This document shows positions 2-19,156 of a stretch of DNA of 64,000 nucleotides, in pieces. Numbering within the stretch: the stretch's first letter is position 1; every line of letters starts with the position of its first letter. Both the position numbers and the translations under genes were made by a program. Below the pieces are notes generated by a model. The model was not told the DNA's origin. It searched no databases and was given only the letters and a program-made list of their open reading frames with translations. Source of the stretch: Candidatus Zixiibacteriota bacterium (GTDB taxonomy: Bacteria; Zixibacteria; MSB-5A5; GN15; FEB-12); NCBI GenBank assembly GCA_020351995.1, contig CP070674.1, positions 136,373 through 200,372 of the forward strand, given 5' to 3'.

Positions 2-2458
2 ACGGGTGAGATTTATTCACCGGATACCTCGGTACTGTATGGGGGAATTCCTTTACAGGAAGGTGTTTACTATTATTTGCGTATCCGGGTAAACGACGGT
101 GTCTCGTGGTGCGACTGGTGGGTAACATCCTTCAGATTGAATACGCCTTCATCGATTCCCGAGTTGATATATCCGATTGGCGGTGAAGCAGTCAACGTCA
201 ATGGAGTACGGCTAAGCCTGAACAACTCGACGGATAACGAGGGCGATACCCGGACTTACGATTTCGAGATTTACAGCGATCCAGGTCTGACCACACTTTT
301 CGATAGTGATATCGGGGTTTCGGAACAAGAGAGCACAACATTCTCGAAGTTTTTCACGGGTTTCACTCTGGGTGCGCAGTACTGGTGGCGGGCCAGGTCA
401 TATGACGGCTACGAGTATTCGAATTGGACGGCACCTGACTACTTTGTCACGGAACAGGGGCTCTCTCTCTACGTTCCCACGAATTATCCCACTATCCAGT
501 CGGCTATAGCCGCGGCATCTGACGGCGATAATATCGTGGTCCTGCCCGGCACCTATGTAGAGAACATAAGTTTTGACGGTAAGGCAGTTGTCGTCATCAG
601 CTCGGACGGTCCGGAAGTTACGACGATTCAAGGGGCGGCCTATGCTTCGTCGGTAGACGTCCCCAGTGAGGTAGATAGCTCGGGTACTTCATCAACGGAT
701 CCCGGTACCGATGCCCTCTTAGCCACGGTGAGCTTTGTCAGTGGTGAACCGAAGGGGGCCGTTCTGTCCGGCTTTACCGTGACCGGGGGTATGCAATCCG
801 GAATTTACTGCGTTAATTCGTCTCCGACCATCGTGAATAATGTTATTACCGGCAACGCGAGTGGCGGTGAGAATTTCGGTGGTGGTCTTTCGTTACGGGG
901 GACGGCCGGTGCGGTGGTAAGAGGTAATACGTTTTACGGCAATTTAGCAACTTACGGAGCAGCTATCCATTTAGGGGAACACGGATATACTAATACCGAT
1001 GACACTATTTGTTACAATGTTATGTATGAGAACAGTGGTATTGGTGAGATACGGGCACTGGGGGGTCTGGTCAATCCGGTAGTTCACAATAATACCGCAA
1101 TTTCGACAACCTGGAGTGGATTTCTCAATCAAAGTAGTGGTCCTGTTATCGCCAAGAACAACATTATCGTTTTTGGTGATCCATACGGTATGCAGGGTGA
1201 CTTTACAGCAACGTATAATTGTACATTTGAGTGTGTTTCGGACTACAACTTCCCTCCCGGGGTGGGCAACATATCCGAAGATCCTATGTTCGTGGATTCA
1301 GTCAATAACGATTATCATCTCGATGCGGAATCGCCCTGTGTTGATGCCGGTGATCCCGATCCCTTCTACAACGACCCCGACGGCACACGTAATGATATGG
1401 GAGCGTACTACTATTCCAGCGGTGCTATTGTCGGCTCAGTCACTGCCAATGAAGTTGGACTGATGGGAGTAAAGATTGACCTTTACGACCAAGCCAGCCA
1501 GATGATTTCCTCTACGGTCACGTCGGAGGATGGCTTTTATGCATTCAGTGGCCTTGAGAGCGACACTTATGTAGTTTCAGTGCTGAGTCCGCTCGGGTTC
1601 TTCACCGATCAGGAAACGCGGATTGTTGAACTTACTGGTCCGATATACGAAGTAAACTTTGAGATGACAGCTTCGGAAACGGAAGAATCTCAAAGAACTC
1701 GTGGTTTCTGGGCGCACCAAGTATCGGTGGCTATGTCTGAGGTGGATGGCTCCCAGATTTATCGGGATGAATTGTGCGAATACCTCGAGAAAGTGAGGGT
1801 TCATTTCAATGAAAACCTGGCTTATCCTATTACAGCATACCAGGTGACGTCGGAAGCCAACTGCACGGAGCGACTGCAAGAGCTTTATCTAACAATAGCG
1901 CCTCAAGTGAGTGAAGGATTTACAGATGCTGCAACAGCCCAGTTTACAGCCCTGCTTTTGAATATTGCTTCGGACAAGCTCGGACAATGGACTAATGTCA
2001 GTGAAGACAATGCGTCGGTCTCGCAGGCGGTGACATACTGCGATTTGCTATTGACCGATGAGGAGCCCGTCAACGATACGTTGGCACAGATTATCGCCGA
2101 GACCATCAACAAGGGGCAGATCGTGGCCGCCGGCGTAATAGATCTGGCAACACCACAAATAATGTACAAGGAACTGGAGAGTAATGGGCTGCCTAAGGAA
2201 TTCACACTGAGCCAGAACTATCCAAATCCGTTTAATCCAGGCACCCAGATTAGCTTCGCGTTGCCTGAAGCCGCGCGGGTTCGGATTGACGTGTTCAACA
2301 TTCTGGGGCAACGGGTTGTGCGCCTTGTGGACAGGGAACTGGAGGCTGGATACCATAGTGTGAGTTTTGACGGAAGCCGGTTTGCGAGTGGGATCTACCT
2401 GTATCGAATAGAGGCTGGTGATTTCGTAGCAAACAAGAAAATGCTTCTTGTCAAATAG
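2..2458 (+). CDS. Secreted right-handed beta-helix protein with type IX secretion tail, 5' end missing
   Basis: The reading frame is open to the left edge, so the N-terminus and any signal peptide lie outside the window; the first in-window start (TTG at 77) is not a real start. The visible order is: fibronectin/Ig-like segments over the first 130 residues; a beta-helix region that opens with YPTIQSAIAAASDGD and holds many short N/G-rich rungs; a carboxypeptidase-regulatory-like or SdrB-type beta-sandwich; a helical segment that begins RTRGFWAHQ; and a C-terminal tail with NYPNPFNP and GIYLYRIEAG. That tail is the Por-secretion (T9SS type A) sorting domain, so the protein is probably exported across the outer membrane and attached to the surface or released. 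The substrate is unknown; beta-helices often bind or cleave polysaccharide, but no catalytic site is evident. Confidence 0.85.
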   Translation, partial: TGEIYSPDTSVLYGGIPLQEGVYYYLRIRVNDGVSWCDWWVTSFRLNTPSSIPELIYPIGGEAVNVNGVRLSLNNSTDNEGDTRTYDFEIYSDPGLTTLFDSDIGVSEQESTTFSKFFTGFTLGAQYWWRARSYDGYEYSNWTAPDYFVTEQGLSLYVPTNYPTIQSAIAAASDGDNIVVLPGTYVENISFDGKAVVVISSDGPEVTTIQGAAYASSVDVPSEVDSSGTSSTDPGTDALLATVSFVSGEPKGAVLSGFTVTGGMQSGIYCVNSSPTIVNNVITGNASGGENFGGGLSLRGTAGAVVRGNTFYGNLATYGAAIHLGEHGYTNTDDTICYNVMYENSGIGEIRALGGLVNPVVHNNTAISTTWSGFLNQSSGPVIAKNNIIVFGDPYGMQGDFTATYNCTFECVSDYNFPPGVGNISEDPMFVDSVNNDYHLDAESPCVDAGDPDPFYNDPDGTRNDMGAYYYSSGAIVGSVTANEVGLMGVKIDLYDQASQMISSTVTSEDGFYAFSGLESDTYVVSVLSPLGFFTDQETRIVELTGPIYEVNFEMTASETEESQRTRGFWAHQVSVAMSEVDGSQIYRDELCEYLEKVRVHFNENLAYPITAYQVTSEANCTERLQELYLTIAPQVSEGFTDAATAQFTALLLNIASDKLGQWTNVSEDNASVSQAVTYCDLLLTDEEPVNDTLAQIIAETINKGQIVAAGVIDLATPQIMYKELESNGLPKEFTLSQNYPNPFNPGTQISFALPEAARVRIDVFNILGQRVVRLVDRELEAGYHSVSFDGSRFASGIYLYRIEAGDFVANKKMLLVK

Positions 2459-12274: not shown

Positions 12275-13096
12275 CTATTGTTTTATGGCACCGGAGGTTA
12301 TGCCGGAAACGATGTGACGCTGCATAATGACGAACAAAATCAGCACCGGAATCACCGCAATTGTGGAACCGGCCATCAGATGCTGCCAGTCTATGGCCTG
12401 GTGGCCCTGGTAAAGGGCCAGAGCGACCGGCAAAACGCGGATTTGCTCGCTCTGGGTCAAAATGAACGGAAAAAGAAAGGCATTCCAATTGGTGAAAAAG
12501 ACCTGGATGGCCAGTACGGCCAGGGCCGGTTTGCAGAGAGGCATTATAACCCTGAACAGGATGCGCATCTCGCCCGCGCCGTCAATTCTGGCCGCTTCTT
12601 CCATGGAAGGGGGAATGGTTTCGATATACTGTTTGACCAGGAAGATCCCTATAGGATTGACCAGCCAGGGCAGAATCAGGGCCCAATATGTATCATACAT
12701 ACCGGTTTTCACCATCAGAACGTAGAGCGGTATTATGATGATGTGGGCGGGGATCATCAATATAAGGATTACCGTAATAAAAAGCAGCTTGTTGATGATA
12801 TACCGGTAGCGGGCGAGAGTGTAAGCTACCATGAAGCAGAACAATATGTTGCCCAGCGTTACCGTCAGACCAACGAAGGCTGAGTTGAATAGAAACCGGC
12901 CGATATTGCCGGTTCGGAACAGGTCAGTGTAGTTCTGCAAGGTGAATTCCATGTCGAGAAAGCTGGAAATACCCAGAGAGCTCCCCGGAACGGCTAAGGA
13001 GACAACAAACATCCACAGCAGGGGGGCCACCATTATTACCAGCAGGGCTATCAGAAGCAGGTACTTTACGCTCTTGCTCATAATGCGGGTCACCAT
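12275..13096 (-). CDS. Sugar ABC transporter permease, MalG-type
   Basis: One half of the inner-membrane channel of a CUT1-type carbohydrate importer. It has six predicted membrane helices. The cytoplasmic EAA loop EAARIDGAGEMRILFRVIMP, which docks the ATPase, is present and well conserved, followed by the usual C-terminal hydrophobic end. The start overlaps the stop of the MalF-type permease by 7 nt, so the two subunits are translationally coupled. No ATPase gene follows; the downstream neighbour is the OmpA-like lipoprotein after 108 nt. Confidence 0.93.
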   Translation of the reverse strand: MVTRIMSKSVKYLLLIALLVIMVAPLLWMFVVSLAVPGSSLGISSFLDMEFTLQNYTDLFRTGNIGRFLFNSAFVGLTVTLGNILFCFMVAYTLARYRYIINKLLFITVILILMIPAHIIIIPLYVLMVKTGMYDTYWALILPWLVNPIGIFLVKQYIETIPPSMEEAARIDGAGEMRILFRVIMPLCKPALAVLAIQVFFTNWNAFLFPFILTQSEQIRVLPVALALYQGHQAIDWQHLMAGSTIAVIPVLILFVIMQRHIVSGITSGAIKQ

Positions 13097-13959
13097 GCTA
13101 CTTGCTTCCTTCTGAACAGCAGGAACTGGGCCAGGGCAAAGACCCCAATTATGACGAATAGCACATAGGCTGCCGCGGAGGCGTACCCGAACTCAAACTT
13201 GGTGGTCAGGCCGGTTTCGTAGATGAAATACACCATGGTGGAAGTCTCGAATTTCCCTTTGGTCATGACGAATATCTCAACAAACACTTGAAACGACTTG
13301 ATTGAGTTCACGACGAGAATAAACAGGGCCACCGGTTTGAGCAGGGGGAGGGTGATGGAGAAAAACTGTCTGATCTTGCCGGCTCCGTTGATTTCAGCCG
13401 ACTCGTAGAGTTCACGTGGTATGGATTTCAGCCCGGCCAAGAATATTAGCATGTAGTAACCCACCGCCATCCACACATCCATGGCCATGATGGAGAACAG
13501 AGCAGTTTCGCCTGAATAGAGAAACCCGTGCTCGGGAGGGGAGAGGCCGATCATTTCGGACAGCAAGGCGATATATCCGCCCCGTTGATAAAGGTTGGTG
13601 AATATAAGCGCTATTACGACCATTGAGGTGATCGACGGCAGGAAGAAGCCCGAGCGAAAAAGGCCCCGCCCCGGAAACTGCTTATCGATAAGAAGGGCCA
13701 TTCCCAGCGCTATTACTGTTGTGAGGGGAATGGTTCCCAACACAAAGATGAAAGTGTTTTTCAGGGACTTAAGAAAATCCGGGTCGCTCAGCAGGGCGCG
13801 GTAATTGTCAAATCCGACCCACTGAGTGTCGGCCGCAAGCAGTTGCTGGTCGGTGAAGCCGATTATGAACGAATAGATAATCGGAAACAGCCAGAATATG
13901 CCGAACGTAAGCAGCCACGGAAGCGCCAGGGCAAGCGCTCCGGCCTTGGACCATTTCAT
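13090..13959 (-). CDS. Sugar ABC transporter permease, MalF/UgpA-type
   Basis: The second channel subunit of the importer. It has 289 residues and six predicted membrane segments beginning ALALPWLLTFGIFWLFPIIY. The EAA loop reads YESAEINGAGKIRQFFSITLP. The large periplasmic insertion of E. coli MalF is absent, as in most CUT1 transporters. The ATG overlaps the stop of the binding-protein gene in a 4-nt ATGA arrangement, so the order is binding protein, this permease, then the MalG-type permease. Confidence 0.93.
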   Translation of the reverse strand: MKWSKAGALALALPWLLTFGIFWLFPIIYSFIIGFTDQQLLAADTQWVGFDNYRALLSDPDFLKSLKNTFIFVLGTIPLTTVIALGMALLIDKQFPGRGLFRSGFFLPSITSMVVIALIFTNLYQRGGYIALLSEMIGLSPPEHGFLYSGETALFSIMAMDVWMAVGYYMLIFLAGLKSIPRELYESAEINGAGKIRQFFSITLPLLKPVALFILVVNSIKSFQVFVEIFVMTKGKFETSTMVYFIYETGLTTKFEFGYASAAAYVLFVIIGVFALAQFLLFRRKQVAW

Positions 13960-15170
13960 TGCGCTTTGATCTTTTCGATCTTCTTGCGGGCTTCGTAAAG
14001 CGAGTGGGCTACCAGTCCGCTCCTGAACAGGGCGTTTTCCACCGCTTCCTCGATAGCCTGTTCTATATATACCCAGTCCGGGTCGACCGGCGGGTGATTG
14101 GCGAATTTTATCTGCCTTATAAAGGTCTGGAGATGAATGCTGGAACTGAAGTAGTCATCTTTCTGGGCCTCAAGACTGGATGGGTTGGCCGACCGATTGG
14201 CCACGCAGAATTTAACCTGATTCTCCGGCGAAGTGATAAATTGGATAAAACGCATGGCTTCCCGGGGATGTTTCGACGCGGTGTTGACGGCGAGAAATTC
14301 TCCACCCTGAAAGGACTTGCCCAGCAGTTTTGTGCCGGGTATGAACGAGGACAGAAGATTTATTTTTCGATTTTCCAGTTCAATACGCTTGAGAAGCCAG
14401 TCGCCGCTGATGATAAAGCCGATTTTGCCTTCGAGGAAAGCATCTTCGATACCACGCTGGTCGGCTACGAATCCGCAAGAATCGTGAAGCTCTTTATAGA
14501 CTTTCAGCGCCTTAATACTGCTGTCGGATGCCAGCAGGCACATTGAGCCATCATCGGAAAACAGCTTAGCCCCATGAGACCAGAAAAAGGGCAGGAATTT
14601 CTTGTAAAGGCGGTGTTTCTCCGGCGCGTTGGAACCCCAGCCGTAAATGCTCGGACTCAGAGCCTGTATTTTTTTGGTGGCTTCGTTAAGTTGTTCGAAA
14701 GTGAGCGGGATGAAATTCTCTTTGTAGCCGGCTTGTGTCAACAGGTCCCGGTTGGCAAACAGGACCCGGGTACCGAGAATCCAAGGGCGAGCGAAGACCT
14801 TTCCATCATAAGTGGCCATACCCCAGCCCTCATAATCGGCACTGTCCGATGCGACCTGTGTCGACATGTCCATAAGCAGGTTGTTGGCCGCGAACTCGGC
14901 AATCCAATCGGAGCCCAATTCAACGATGTCCGGTCCGGTTTTGGAGCCGAAAGCGATGACGATCTTCTCGTGGCCGTTGGCCCAGGTTAAATCGGTCAGT
15001 TGTATATCGATGTCCGGGTTGGCCTGTTCAAACTCCGTTACCATCTTTTCGATGACGGGTTTGATATTCGGATCGGTCCAGAATTGCCACCAGGTGATGG
15101 TCGTTTTGGCCTGAGCAAGGCCACATAGAATTACAGTAATGATAACAGCGAACAAAATTCTTTTATTCAT
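13956..15170 (-). CDS. Extracellular sugar-binding protein of an ABC importer
   Basis: Captures the sugar outside the inner membrane and delivers it to the two permeases. The preferred start is the ATG at 15170, which has GAGG at a proper distance; a TTG three bases earlier is possible. The signal peptide is about 21 residues and ends at GLAQA, with no lipobox. The mature part opens with TTITWWQFWTDP, typical of bacterial extracellular solute-binding protein family 1, and continues with VTEFEQANPDIDIQL and FGSKTGPDIVELGSDW. The ligand cannot be told from sequence; glycerol-3-phosphate, maltose-type oligosaccharides and polyol ligands all use this family. Confidence 0.92.
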   Translation of the reverse strand: MNKRILFAVIITVILCGLAQAKTTITWWQFWTDPNIKPVIEKMVTEFEQANPDIDIQLTDLTWANGHEKIVIAFGSKTGPDIVELGSDWIAEFAANNLLMDMSTQVASDSADYEGWGMATYDGKVFARPWILGTRVLFANRDLLTQAGYKENFIPLTFEQLNEATKKIQALSPSIYGWGSNAPEKHRLYKKFLPFFWSHGAKLFSDDGSMCLLASDSSIKALKVYKELHDSCGFVADQRGIEDAFLEGKIGFIISGDWLLKRIELENRKINLLSSFIPGTKLLGKSFQGGEFLAVNTASKHPREAMRFIQFITSPENQVKFCVANRSANPSSLEAQKDDYFSSSIHLQTFIRQIKFANHPPVDPDWVYIEQAIEEAVENALFRSGLVAHSLYEARKKIEKIKAQ

Positions 15171-15216
15171 CAATCGAACCTCGAGAATTTTTTGGGCCGG
15201 TAAAATCGTGCTGAAA

Positions 15217-15296: not shown

Positions 15297-16121
15297 GTGA
15301 TTCAATACGCAATCGCAATAAGTGCTGTGGCGCTCCCGAGCTGGTTCAACGCAGAAACCTTGGCCACGTTGCTGGCTTCAATCATTTCTATTCTCATCGT
15401 GGTTTATACTACTTATTACCGTCGAAAGGACCGTGAGTTCAGAGTTCGTACGATTTCCGGGTTGAGCGCGGTAGAGGACGCAATCGGACGGGCGACCGAA
15501 ATGGCGCGGCCGGTGCTTTACACGCCAGGCTGGGGTGGCGACATACAGCGGCCGACTACAATCGCGTCGATGAATATCCTGAGTCACGTCGCCGAGAAAA
15601 CGGCGGGTTACGACTGCCGTCTGGTTTATCCAACTCACGACCCGGTGATCATGGCTGTGGCGCAGGAAGTGGTGAAAGAAAGTTACACCCGGGTCGGTTT
15701 TCCGGATCGTTATCGGTCAGACGATATCTCGTATGTGTCTTCGTCCCAGTTCGGATACGCCGCGGCGGTGGATGGTCTGATCAGTAGATTGAAGCCGGCA
15801 TCGATATTCCTGCTCGGTACATTTGAGGCAGAATCGTTGATCCTGGCCGAAACCGGCAATTCCATCAACGCAATCCAAATCGCCGGTACCGATTCGACGA
15901 TACAGCTGTCATTCTTTATTGTCGCCTGTGATTATACCCTGATCGGTGAGGAGGTCTTCGCAGCATCGGGCTATCTTTCGGGTGACCGGTCAATATTGGC
16001 TTCAGTCAAGGCTCAAGATATTATGAAAGTCCTGATAGCGCTGTTTGTTTTAGCCGCCGTGGTCTGGAGCACAGTAGAAACCCTGGCCGGTCAATCCCTG
16101 TCTGAATGGTGGGTATTCTGA
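15297..16121 (+). CDS. Unknown membrane protein with two anchors and a central soluble domain (possibly DUF6754-type)
   Basis: 274 residues, starting at GTG 15297 with no visible ribosome site, so the start is uncertain. A membrane helix lies at about 20-41, a soluble alpha/beta domain at 45-240 and a second helix at about 243-264. The soluble domain opens with SGLSAVEDAIGRATEMARP and has VLYTPGWGGDIQRPTTI. It resembles, from memory, proteins labelled DUF6754, but I could not confirm this. It ends in the pattern E185-x-G187-x9-G197 and D212-xx-L-x6-A-xx-G-x-L-x-G229. The same spaced residues occur in the third gene of this operon. First gene of a tightly coupled four-gene unit; function unknown. 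Confidence 0.8.
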   Translation: MIQYAIAISAVALPSWFNAETLATLLASIISILIVVYTTYYRRKDREFRVRTISGLSAVEDAIGRATEMARPVLYTPGWGGDIQRPTTIASMNILSHVAEKTAGYDCRLVYPTHDPVIMAVAQEVVKESYTRVGFPDRYRSDDISYVSSSQFGYAAAVDGLISRLKPASIFLLGTFEAESLILAETGNSINAIQIAGTDSTIQLSFFIVACDYTLIGEEVFAASGYLSGDRSILASVKAQDIMKVLIALFVLAAVVWSTVETLAGQSLSEWWVF

Positions 16122-16741
16122 TGGGGCGCAAGTTTCCATTGGCGGTCTGTTTTCTGTTCGGCGTGGTAATGTTTATTCAGTATTTCTCGCAGAGCACGGC
16201 CGCGAGGAATCTCAATCAGACTATTCTTGACTACTGGCAGATAGTCTTCGCCTTTACTTTGATAGTCGGTGTATTCAGCTTTTTCAAAAACAACGTAACG
16301 CATATAAGCAGGGGTGCCGACCGGCCATACCGCGTGGTGGGCTTGATTGGTTTCTGTTCGATGCCAATTCTGGCGCTAATATGGGGTATCAAGGCCGACA
16401 CGCCGTTTATGTGGATGTTCGAAAATGTACAGGCACCGATGCAGTCCACGGTTTTCGCGTTGCTAGCGTTTTTCGTTGCCTCGGCGTCGTTCAGGGGATT
16501 CAGGGCACGTTCGTTGCCGGCAGCGGTGCTGCTTATTTCGGCGCTTTTGATGCTGTTGAGCCGTTCTAATATCGGTGGCTATTTCTCTTCCGGCTTGCCG
16601 GAAGTAGCCAACTGGGTTCGCGACTATCCGTCGATGGCTGCCCGCCGAGCTATTTTGATAGGGATAGGGCTTGGCTCACTGACAACGTCGCTTCGCGTAA
16701 TCATCGGGATTGAACGCACGTGGTTGGGAGGGGAAAAGTGA
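16121..16741 (+). CDS. Unknown six-helix membrane protein, second gene of the membrane operon
   Basis: The preferred start is the ATG at 16121, which overlaps the upstream stop as TGATG; an in-frame ATG at 16106 would add five residues. From 16121 the protein has 206 residues and is almost all membrane, with predicted helices near 6-20, 39-57, 70-89, 104-121, 131-147 and 176-193. Short charged loops such as KNNVTHISRGADRPYR lie between them. No catalytic or transport signature is visible. Coupling on both sides implies that it is made in step with the anchored soluble-domain proteins, most likely as a subunit of the same complex. Confidence 0.82.
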   Translation: MGRKFPLAVCFLFGVVMFIQYFSQSTAARNLNQTILDYWQIVFAFTLIVGVFSFFKNNVTHISRGADRPYRVVGLIGFCSMPILALIWGIKADTPFMWMFENVQAPMQSTVFALLAFFVASASFRGFRARSLPAAVLLISALLMLLSRSNIGGYFSSGLPEVANWVRDYPSMAARRAILIGIGLGSLTTSLRVIIGIERTWLGGEK

Positions 16742-17550
16742 AGAAGCTTGAAGCCCGTCACTTCGCTTTCCTGGGATTATTCCTGGTCGTCACGCTCACC
16801 ATGCTGCTCAATATAAAGCTGGATATGAAAGCCTCACCTTACACACAGGCGCTTTATAACTATATAGAGTTTCTACCGGAGGGTTCTACCCTGATTGTCT
16901 CTTTTGACCATGAGGCATCATCGTTGCCGGAAATTCGCCCTATCGCGACAGCGGTGCTGCGTCACGCGTTTCGGAAGAAGCATAAGCTTATCGGGGTGTC
17001 GTTGCTGGCCGAGGGCACGCTTATCGGATACCGGCTGATGAGAGAAACCGCCGGGGAACATGGGGCTGAATACGGCACCGACTACGTGTACCTGGGTTTT
17101 CGTCCGCAGTATATCGCGGCAATTCTCGCGATGGGGGAGTCCATCGAGAAAACTTATCCGCAGGATTATCTGGGCAATCCGTATGGACAGTTTGAGCTGC
17201 TCAAAGGGGTACAAAATTATGATGATATAGCTGCCGTAGTCTCGATTGCCGACGGGTCACTGACCACGCACTGGATCGAATACGGGCAGGCGCGATACGG
17301 AGTGAGGGTAGTCGGCGCGGTAACGGCGGCAATGGTGACTACATATGATCCGTATCTTGCCTCGGGGCAGATGTACGCCATGATGGGTGGGTTGCGGGGC
17401 GCGGCAGAGTACGAAAAGCTTATAGGCAAGGACGGGGGAGGGGCGAGGGGAATGCTGGCTCAGTCCAGCGCTCACATATATGTGATTCTGCTTATCGTGC
17501 TGGGCAATATCGCCTACTTCTCATCCCGAAGAACAAAGGGTTCAGGCTGA
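16738..17550 (+). CDS. Unknown two-anchor membrane protein, likely paralogue of the first operon gene
   Basis: Starts at GTG 16738, which overlaps the previous stop as GTGA and has GGAGG 6 nt upstream; this is better than the upstream in-frame GTG 16720. The protein has 270 residues, with membrane helices at about 8-25 and 247-262 around a soluble domain. That domain ends in E181-x-G183-x9-G193 and D204-xx-L-x6-A-xx-G-x-L-x-G221. The spacing is the same as in the first gene. GGLRGAAEYEKL near 218 looks like the most conserved stretch. No enzyme signature is recognised. The shared layout with the first gene suggests a hetero-oligomer with the polytopic proteins. Confidence 0.82.
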   Translation: MKKLEARHFAFLGLFLVVTLTMLLNIKLDMKASPYTQALYNYIEFLPEGSTLIVSFDHEASSLPEIRPIATAVLRHAFRKKHKLIGVSLLAEGTLIGYRLMRETAGEHGAEYGTDYVYLGFRPQYIAAILAMGESIEKTYPQDYLGNPYGQFELLKGVQNYDDIAAVVSIADGSLTTHWIEYGQARYGVRVVGAVTAAMVTTYDPYLASGQMYAMMGGLRGAAEYEKLIGKDGGGARGMLAQSSAHIYVILLIVLGNIAYFSSRRTKGSG

Positions 17551-18164
17551 TGGAAATGGGTACAATCATAGCCGGAATATTGACTCTGGCTATTTTGTCG
17601 TTCCTATACCGGGACAACCCGATCTACAAGATGGCCGAGTATCTTCTGATCGGCGTATCTATCGGTTATGTTCTGGTTATCACCTGGACCAACACTCTGA
17701 TGTCGCTGTTGTTTGTACCGCTGTTCGCGGGGTCTGACCTGTGGTTAATAATACCGCTGATTCTGGGCCTTTTGATGTGGGCTCGTTTTCACAAGAACAT
17801 CGCGTCGCTGTCGCGCATACCGATCGGGTTCATGATTGGCTCGGGCGCCGGGGTGGCAATCCCGGCCATGCTCTATGGACGGACTTTGAGGCAGTTGTCG
17901 GCCTCGGTAACACCGTTAGTTGACTCGTCGGGTGTTCCAAATATATCGGGTATAGTGGTAATAGCGGGATTACTGACGACCCTTTCATATTTCTATTTTA
18001 GCCGCGAGCATAAAGGGCATTTTGGCAGGCTGGCAAAAGTGGGGACATTTTTCCTGATGGTATTTTTCGGTACCACTTTCGGGTATACAGTTATGTCGCG
18101 GATGTCGACTTTTATCGGGCGGATGGAGTTTTTGCTGACAGATTTTCTGAGGCTGGCGAACTGA
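17550..18164 (+). CDS. Unknown six-helix membrane protein, fourth gene of the membrane operon
   Basis: 204 residues. The ATG overlaps the upstream stop as TGATG. Predicted membrane helices lie at about 4-19, 31-49, 62-78, 90-108, 131-150 and 163-182. The loop MWARFHKNIASLSRIPIGF is positively charged and probably cytoplasmic. The helices hold several glycines (GFMIGSGAGVAIPAMLYG) that would allow tight packing. No transporter family motif is evident. It is probably the second integral subunit of the complex. The zinc-ribbon ORF begins 9 nt after its stop. Confidence 0.82.
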   Translation: MEMGTIIAGILTLAILSFLYRDNPIYKMAEYLLIGVSIGYVLVITWTNTLMSLLFVPLFAGSDLWLIIPLILGLLMWARFHKNIASLSRIPIGFMIGSGAGVAIPAMLYGRTLRQLSASVTPLVDSSGVPNISGIVVIAGLLTTLSYFYFSREHKGHFGRLAKVGTFFLMVFFGTTFGYTVMSRMSTFIGRMEFLLTDFLRLAN

Positions 18165-18172
18165 GGCGAGTT

Positions 18173-18301
18173 ATGAAATGTCCCAGATGTAAGTCGGCTA
18201 TGAAAGAGCAGAAACGTTCCTTTCACAAGCAGAGGAAATGGATCTGTCCCTCCTGCGGCTTCGTGCGATTCCAGCGGCCGAGAGACCAGAAGAAAAAGTG
18301 A
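18173..18301 (+). CDS. 42-residue zinc-ribbon microprotein
   Basis: A small ORF read by hand, starting with ATG at 18173 behind GAGG in CTGAGGCGAGTTATG. It encodes a very basic 42-residue protein with two Cys pairs: MKCPRC at the start and CPSCGF at about 25-30. These are spaced as in a rubredoxin-like zinc ribbon. The stop is TGA 18299-18301. It follows the four-gene membrane operon by 9 nt on the same strand, so co-transcription is likely. It could bind RNA or DNA, or serve as a metal-bound cytoplasmic partner; the sequence alone does not say which. Confidence 0.7.
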   Translation: MKCPRCKSAMKEQKRSFHKQRKWICPSCGFVRFQRPRDQKKK

Positions 18302-18373: not shown

Positions 18374-19156
18374 ATGGGCGAGGCGAAGGCTGATATAAGG
18401 ATCGGGACATCGGGGTATAGTTTCGACGACTGGAAAGGTCGGTTCTACCCCGATAAGGTGGCCAAGGGGAAAATGCTCGACTACTATGTGAGGTTCTTTC
18501 CGACGGTTGAGATTAACTCTACCTATTATCGTATTCCGCATCCGGCTGTGATGGCCAATATAGTCAAGAAGGCCCCTGACAAGTTTGATTTTATGGTTAA
18601 AGTGCCGCAGACATTCACCCACCGAAGAAGCGACTTGAAGAAGGATGTGGATAATTTCCGAATGGCTCTTCAGCCGGTGGAAGACTCGGGTAAGCTGTCG
18701 GGCCTTTTGGCGCAGTTTCCGTATTCATTCAAATTCAGCAATGACAATCTTGATTACCTGGCTATTTGCCGGGACGCGGTTTCACCCAACCCGCTTTTCG
18801 TGGAGTTTCGTCACAACGGCTGGGTCAACCGGGAGATGTACGACCGGCTGAAAGCCGAGCGAATAGGCTATGTATGTGTTGACGAGCCGGACTTGCCGGG
18901 ACTTCTCCAGCCGGATATGTTCGCCACCACCGAGACCGCCTATCTCAGACTTCATGGGCGTAACAAAGAGAAATGGTGGGACGGGGGCGCGCTTCGGTAT
19001 GACTACAGCTATTCAGACCAAGAGCTGCAGGAGTGGAAGGAGAAATTGCTCAAGATCAGGGGAAAAGTTAAGAGAATATACATTTATTTCAATAATTGTC
19101 ACCTTGGTCAGGCCGCCGGTGACGCCAGGCAGTTTATGGGAATGCTTGGTCTGTGA
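18374..19156 (+). CDS. DUF72 (YecE-like) family protein
   Basis: 260 residues, the normal length for the family, which adopts a TIM-barrel-like fold. Family hallmarks are present: IRIGTSGYSFDDWKG and FYPDKV near the start, FPTVEINSTYYRIP, the FDFMVKVPQTFTH segment, FVEFRHNGW, and the C-terminal YIYFNNCHLGQA. The biochemical role is unproven. It begins 72 nt after the zinc-ribbon ORF and without a clear ribosome site. It could be the tail of that unit or separately expressed. Confidence 0.9.
   Translation: MGEAKADIRIGTSGYSFDDWKGRFYPDKVAKGKMLDYYVRFFPTVEINSTYYRIPHPAVMANIVKKAPDKFDFMVKVPQTFTHRRSDLKKDVDNFRMALQPVEDSGKLSGLLAQFPYSFKFSNDNLDYLAICRDAVSPNPLFVEFRHNGWVNREMYDRLKAERIGYVCVDEPDLPGLLQPDMFATTETAYLRLHGRNKEKWWDGGALRYDYSYSDQELQEWKEKLLKIRGKVKRIYIYFNNCHLGQAAGDARQFMGMLGL

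Follow-up and report, generated by a model that had tools for sequence, protein, structure and literature searches.

DUF6754 (PF20539) is a protein family that consists of a bare domain with no assigned function, and no description of it was found that names the proteins accompanying it here (B, C and D, which are encoded beside it, and M and H, which co-occur with it). Protein A, encoded by the first gene of a membrane operon in the window (the whole stretch of 64,000 nucleotides analysed), belongs to this family, as the sequence-only reading of this DNA had tentatively proposed. Its PF20539 score (Table 1) stands against a cut-off of 27 bits, with E=1.9e-96 over profile positions 4-251 of 257. 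It is the only one of the four membrane proteins A-D to have a family number. B, C and D gave nothing above cut-off in Pfam or NCBIfam, and no characterised relative of the three appeared in family, profile or fold searches, in agreement with the earlier statement that they match no known function. Profiles of A-D gave no convincing match when compared with solved structures, and PDB sequence searches returned no relative for A-D or M, the matches to A, C and H being at chance level only. B-D thus appear connected to nothing known through family libraries or folds. With caution, the system lies outside the known kinds, the fold comparison having covered the models of A and C. A literature search for DUF6754 found no mention within its coverage, which excluded most subscription journals, and searches pairing Zixibacteria with glutamate mutase MutL, and GlmL with ASKHA, found nothing.

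The closest described counterparts of the co-occurring proteins are the GlmL/MutL family (PF13941; NF040745) for M and the barrel-sandwich subunits RnfC and NqrA for H. M shares the family match (PF13941, 437.6 bits against a cut-off of 27) and has kept the ASKHA-type nucleotide motifs DCGSTTTK, DIGGATTD and GSGG. It differs from GlmL in being longer, in scoring below the GlmL cut-off (NF040745, 244.8 bits against 475) and apparently in lying beside a membrane cassette instead of a B12 mutase; no B12-dependent mutase was recognised among its recurrent neighbours, which were clustered and partly annotated. H, a protein of ~375 aa, matches the RnfC/biotinyl barrel-sandwich domain weakly, but is without conserved cysteines, and A-D do not have those conserved in the integral subunits of Rnf-type complexes. 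RnfC_N was matched by 11 of 17 H members (best E 2.2e-5), and the H of locus L188 reached 23.6 bits against a cut-off of 25.6, with Biotin_lipoyl slightly above cut-off in the same protein.

Group II ECF transporters resemble the system by analogy only, in that a single cytosolic pair is combined with several membrane modules, and the gene counts reported below (a single H, several A) fit such a sharing layout. The ATPases of those transporters are ABC-type EcfA, whereas the co-occurring nucleotide protein here is of the ASKHA type. No sequence relation to them was found, and no ABC ATPase is tied to the cassettes across phyla, scattered neighbours aside.

Gene layout and predicted topology

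Junctions overlapping by 1-4 nt had been noted from the sequence, and they were confirmed at 1 nt for A/B (TGATG), 4 nt for B/C (GTGA) and 1 nt for C/D (TGATG). As alternative in-frame upstream starts exist for B (at 16106) and C (at 16720), the first two of these overlaps are minima and could be longer. The small gene E does directly follow D, with a measured gap of 8 nt rather than the 9 nt given earlier. Neither M nor H adjoins the cassette in the window.

Table 1. Coordinates of the operon (15297-18301) and of its flanking genes in the window
Feature	Position	Strand	Description	Basis or remark
A	15297..16121	+	DUF6754 protein, 274 aa; GTG start	PF20539 322.6 bits; AlphaFold2
A, first anchor	residues ~19-41			
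A, Rossmann-like domain	residues ~50-228		predicted cytosolic	
A, second anchor	residues ~231-272			
B	16121..16741	+	six-helix membrane protein, 206 aa, no family	hydropathy scan, family searches
C	16738..17550	+	270 aa, no family; anchor at either end of a predicted extracytoplasmic Rossmann-like domain	
D	17550..18164	+	six-helix membrane protein, 204 aa, no family	hydropathy scan, family searches
E	18173..18301	+	42 aa, CxxC-x18-CxxC, zinc-ribbon-like	lineage-limited neighbour
Sugar-type ABC transporter genes	12275-15173	-	SBP_bac_1 and two permeases	divergent from the cassette
DUF72 gene	18374-19156		DUF72 protein	downstream of E

The membrane layout proposed earlier was upheld by a hydropathy scan, which found two helices each in A and C, against six each in B and D, and the AlphaFold2 models of A and C (pLDDT 87.6 and 97.1) agree with an anchor at either end of a soluble alpha/beta domain. 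Both models have the same order of elements, namely an anchor, a six-stranded alpha/beta domain and a second anchor. Net charge is +3.28 after the first anchor of A (n=110 sequences) and, for C, +1.92 before the first anchor and +3.46 after the last (n=162 sequences). From the models and these charge statistics, the Rossmann-like domain of A is predicted to lie in the cytosol and that of C outside. Homology between A and C, considered on account of the shared order of secondary structure in the models, was rejected as unproven, hhalign between their profiles having found nothing; the same comparison of B with D also gave nothing.

The best fold match of A is to the Moco carrier protein, with the LOG-SLOG Rossmann fold (Foldseek E 9e-4, TM-score 0.52 over the target). 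With an rmsd of 7.9 A, low query coverage and the membrane anchoring of A, this likeness is a lead and not homology. C gave no Foldseek matches below 1e-3 and no close fold relative. B and D matched no transporter family, and the analysis turned up neither a substrate nor a transporter signature. Residues F117, A122, R125, F127 and A141 of B are invariant in a cross-phylum alignment, and in D the invariant residues are N23, E30, R184 and R191.

Many A proteins carry N-terminal extensions, FN3-like or longer, that bring the total length up to 975 aa, and in several the long outer extensions contain FN3- or Ig-like stretches. The extensions are always N-terminal of the DUF6754 domain, which stays C-terminal and conserved; the copy in the window has none. 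In one B protein, a predicted outer loop carries an FG-GAP-like insert. Compared with paralogs in its own genome, A is the most conserved of the four (44-49% identity), with C at 33-35%. An apparent fusion of A to an S49 peptidase (L144:6321-8708), at first sight a hint at function, spans a run of N and was rejected as an assembly artefact.

A sugar-type ABC transporter operon is divergent from the window-type cassette in 56 related loci. This neighbour may hint at a substrate class, yet it is compatible with mere position.

Conservation of the A-B-C-D cassette

Recurrence of the gene order in other phyla had been named as a check on the sequence-only reading, and A-B-C-D was indeed found in other-phylum loci. 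Across 169 loci, drawn from the sampled genomes together with named MAGs (Fermentibacteria, WOR-3 and Eisenbacteria), there were 183 intact A-B-C-D cassettes and no alternative orders, the departures being truncations or additional copies of A or C. In one lineage, three additional C copies follow the cassette (L187:1263-3968).

DUF6754 was present in every genome of the window's phylum (132/132), in 140 of the 147 genomes of the phylum to which WOR-3 locus L083 belongs, and in 66 of 254 genomes from a sample of relatives lying outside the window's phylum. It was found in none of 14 well-known control genomes. With order and content conserved across dozens of bacterial lineages and DUF6754 throughout one phylum, a basic role is likely.

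The nearest relatives are Candidatus Zixiibacteriota MAGs. Mean A-D identity to the nearest one is 86%, and this protein conservation, together with orthologs in other phyla, excludes chance. Since cross-phylum identity is only ~45%, the spread of the cassette is old. Between-cassette distance matrices of the subunits correlate with r 0.78-0.86, and for 28 of the 30 cassettes in ten triple-tandem loci, all four subunits point to the same nearest array position. Each cassette is therefore passed on as a whole. Array types 1 and 3 can be recognised in other phyla as well, and so the duplication also looks old. Such co-inheritance fits a fixed complex, and on these sequence comparisons it is highly probable that A-D have an obligate function in common.

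Copies in the genome of the window

The four-gene unit proposed from the sequence holds as a core, A-B-C-D, and is one of five paralogous cassettes in its own genome. This Zixibacteria MAG has five DUF6754 genes and a total of five cassettes, the others being one in L088, a tandem set in L087, and an A with a partial B in L086. Two gaps of 100 N, at L086:7763-7862 (C1:803762-803861) and L087:14498-14597 (C1:1388497-1388596), interrupt one and the same B gene, and a stretch of 29 residues preceding one gap is identical to the first residues past the other. Given the gaps and this identical overlap, L086 and L087 read as one three-cassette tandem array, which suggests that the array was split by a scaffolding misjoin in the single-contig MAG. 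The solitary A and half B of L086 had been considered a broken cassette; they are most likely a tandem cassette split by scaffolding instead. Three tandem cassettes are found in many other Zixibacteria. The genome has one M and one H, which adjoin the L086 cassette.

Co-occurrence of M and H with the cassette

The earlier confinement of the unit to four genes could not be maintained, as M and H co-occur with A-D across phyla. Clustering of flanking genes across phyla placed the two directly upstream of A in many lineages. Both were searched in the same 386 genomes as DUF6754, with a threshold of E below 1e-150 for M. Outside the window's phylum, H was found in 62 of 66 genomes with DUF6754 versus 0 of 188 others (Fisher p 6e-55, a nominal value that treats the genomes as independent despite their relatedness), and M in 56 of 66 versus 1 of 188. 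The four outside-phylum DUF6754 genomes in which H was not found are G483, G502, G642 and G680. H is single in most genomes, and A is present in one to seven copies. Judging by this distribution, M and H very probably belong to one system with A-D. We conclude that this M-H-ABCD membrane system is undescribed and widely conserved, and that the operon in the window is one of its copies. Four hypothetical proteins are thereby placed in a defined system for which partners, a predicted topology and the lineages carrying it can be named.

Other neighbours are less constant, and they include the small proteins S and T, TolQ/ExbD, lipoate ligase, GcvPB, DUF4388 and a histidine kinase, the last in a divergent clade. 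S, a small conserved protein ('APAIxFLESxKPLNFIGSQ'), and T, with two helices, precede M in many lineages (e.g. L134:11825-12157) and have no family. In several lineages, the M-H-ABCD operon or ABCD cassettes have GcvPB and lipoate ligase genes as neighbours, GcvPB lying immediately 5' of S-M-H-A in L134, L174 and L180 and lipoate ligase near L083, L122, L128, L134 and L174. An SH3 membrane protein stands before the divergent cassette in L109, L110 and L111.

Possible function

We propose that A-D would form one inner-membrane complex, with B and D (6+6 helices) as the membrane core and the strongly conserved cytosolic domain of A docking a single shared M-H pair, in which M would be the ASKHA nucleotide-binding protein and H a barrel-sandwich adaptor. 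Facing outward and setting specificity would be the task of C and of the variable outer regions, namely the FN3-like extensions on A and the inserts of B and C. M would bind and hydrolyse ATP and, via H, drive or gate several membrane modules of differing outward specificity. A module that is diverse outward and conserved inward, served by a single nucleotide-binding pair, is most suggestive of a shared engine. Probably, A-D are a widespread cell-membrane machine. The whole mechanism, in which M-H as a shared engine power A-D complexes that act as interchangeable transport modules, is put forward tentatively. Within it, transport is our first choice over sensing and envelope assembly, a choice that is possible and not expected, and that the ASKHA ATPase drives or gates transport as part of a new class of energised membrane machine, M-H with one to seven ABCD modules, is more doubtful again. 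GlmL is thought to act on another target, and M could likewise have another target. Were the ASKHA partner to energise the membrane module, this would be a kind of coupling for which we know of no described precedent, and a new class of machine would be present in about one quarter of the sampled outside-phylum genomes and be near-universal both in Zixibacteria and in the phylum to which the WOR-3 locus belongs.

We infer that transport is followed by sensing, then by envelope assembly and then by a redox or cofactor enzyme. The histidine-kinase, TolQ/ExbD and glycine-cleavage neighbours fit these rivals equally well.

Somewhat less probable than transport is a receptor module, in which the outer parts would bind ligand and the state would pass via B and D to the cytosolic domain of A and from there to signalling proteins, M-H serving as the nucleotide-dependent transducer. 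This would account for variable outer extensions on A beside a conserved cytosolic domain, for the DUF4388 protein that follows D in loci from the phylum of the WOR-3 locus, and for the divergent-clade cassettes of L109 and L111, which have the SH3 membrane protein before and a very large multi-helix histidine kinase after. The kinase linkage, however, was seen in that clade only, signalling genes are absent from the surroundings of most cassettes, and twelve conserved helices exceed the needs of a receptor.

Lower in probability is an envelope-assembly or trans-envelope device that would draw on the proton-motive force through adjoining TolQ/ExbD/TonB, with M as a cytosolic actin-fold organiser. 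TolQ/ExbD-type genes were seen in ~15 of the examined loci, among them the one that holds M and H in the genome of the window, and the long FN3- and Ig-like outer extensions of several A proteins would suit such a device. Many cassettes, the window's among them, nevertheless have no TolQ/ExbD nearby, and M falls in the GlmL/MutL family, not with actin or FtsA/PilM.

We consider it improbable that A-D and H are a membrane enzyme or redox-driven ion pump with an Rnf/Nqr-like mechanism, tied to lipoate, glycine-cleavage or corrinoid metabolism. The likeness of H to the RnfC/NqrA domain, the GlmL-like M, the GcvPB genes upstream of S-M-H-A and the lipoate ligases near five loci point that way, but the RnfC_N matches are weak and the glycine-cleavage linkage was seen in three loci. 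In addition, the alignments contain no invariant cysteine in H, B, C or D and a single one, C211, in A, and thus no iron-sulphur or Rnf-type cysteine set. That A-D are ordinary neighbours with an order kept by chance or recent spread, a view open to proteins of which only A is in Pfam and none has a known function, is very improbable given the invariant order in 183 cassettes, the congruent subunit distances, the co-occurring H and the old spread.

The zinc-ribbon-like protein E

Protein E has the two cysteine pairs reported for it (C3, C6, C25 and C28), but its membership of the operon unit did not stand. It was found in 50 loci, every one with window-type cassettes, and is missing from paralogous and other-phylum loci. 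This restricted distribution, together with the loci in which it is detached from D, rules it out as a fifth subunit, and E is taken as a lineage-specific neighbour outside what appears to be the conserved module. In 45 loci it lies within ~270 nt of the end of D or overlaps D; in three of the five loci where it lies apart from D, it is found against a DUF72 gene.
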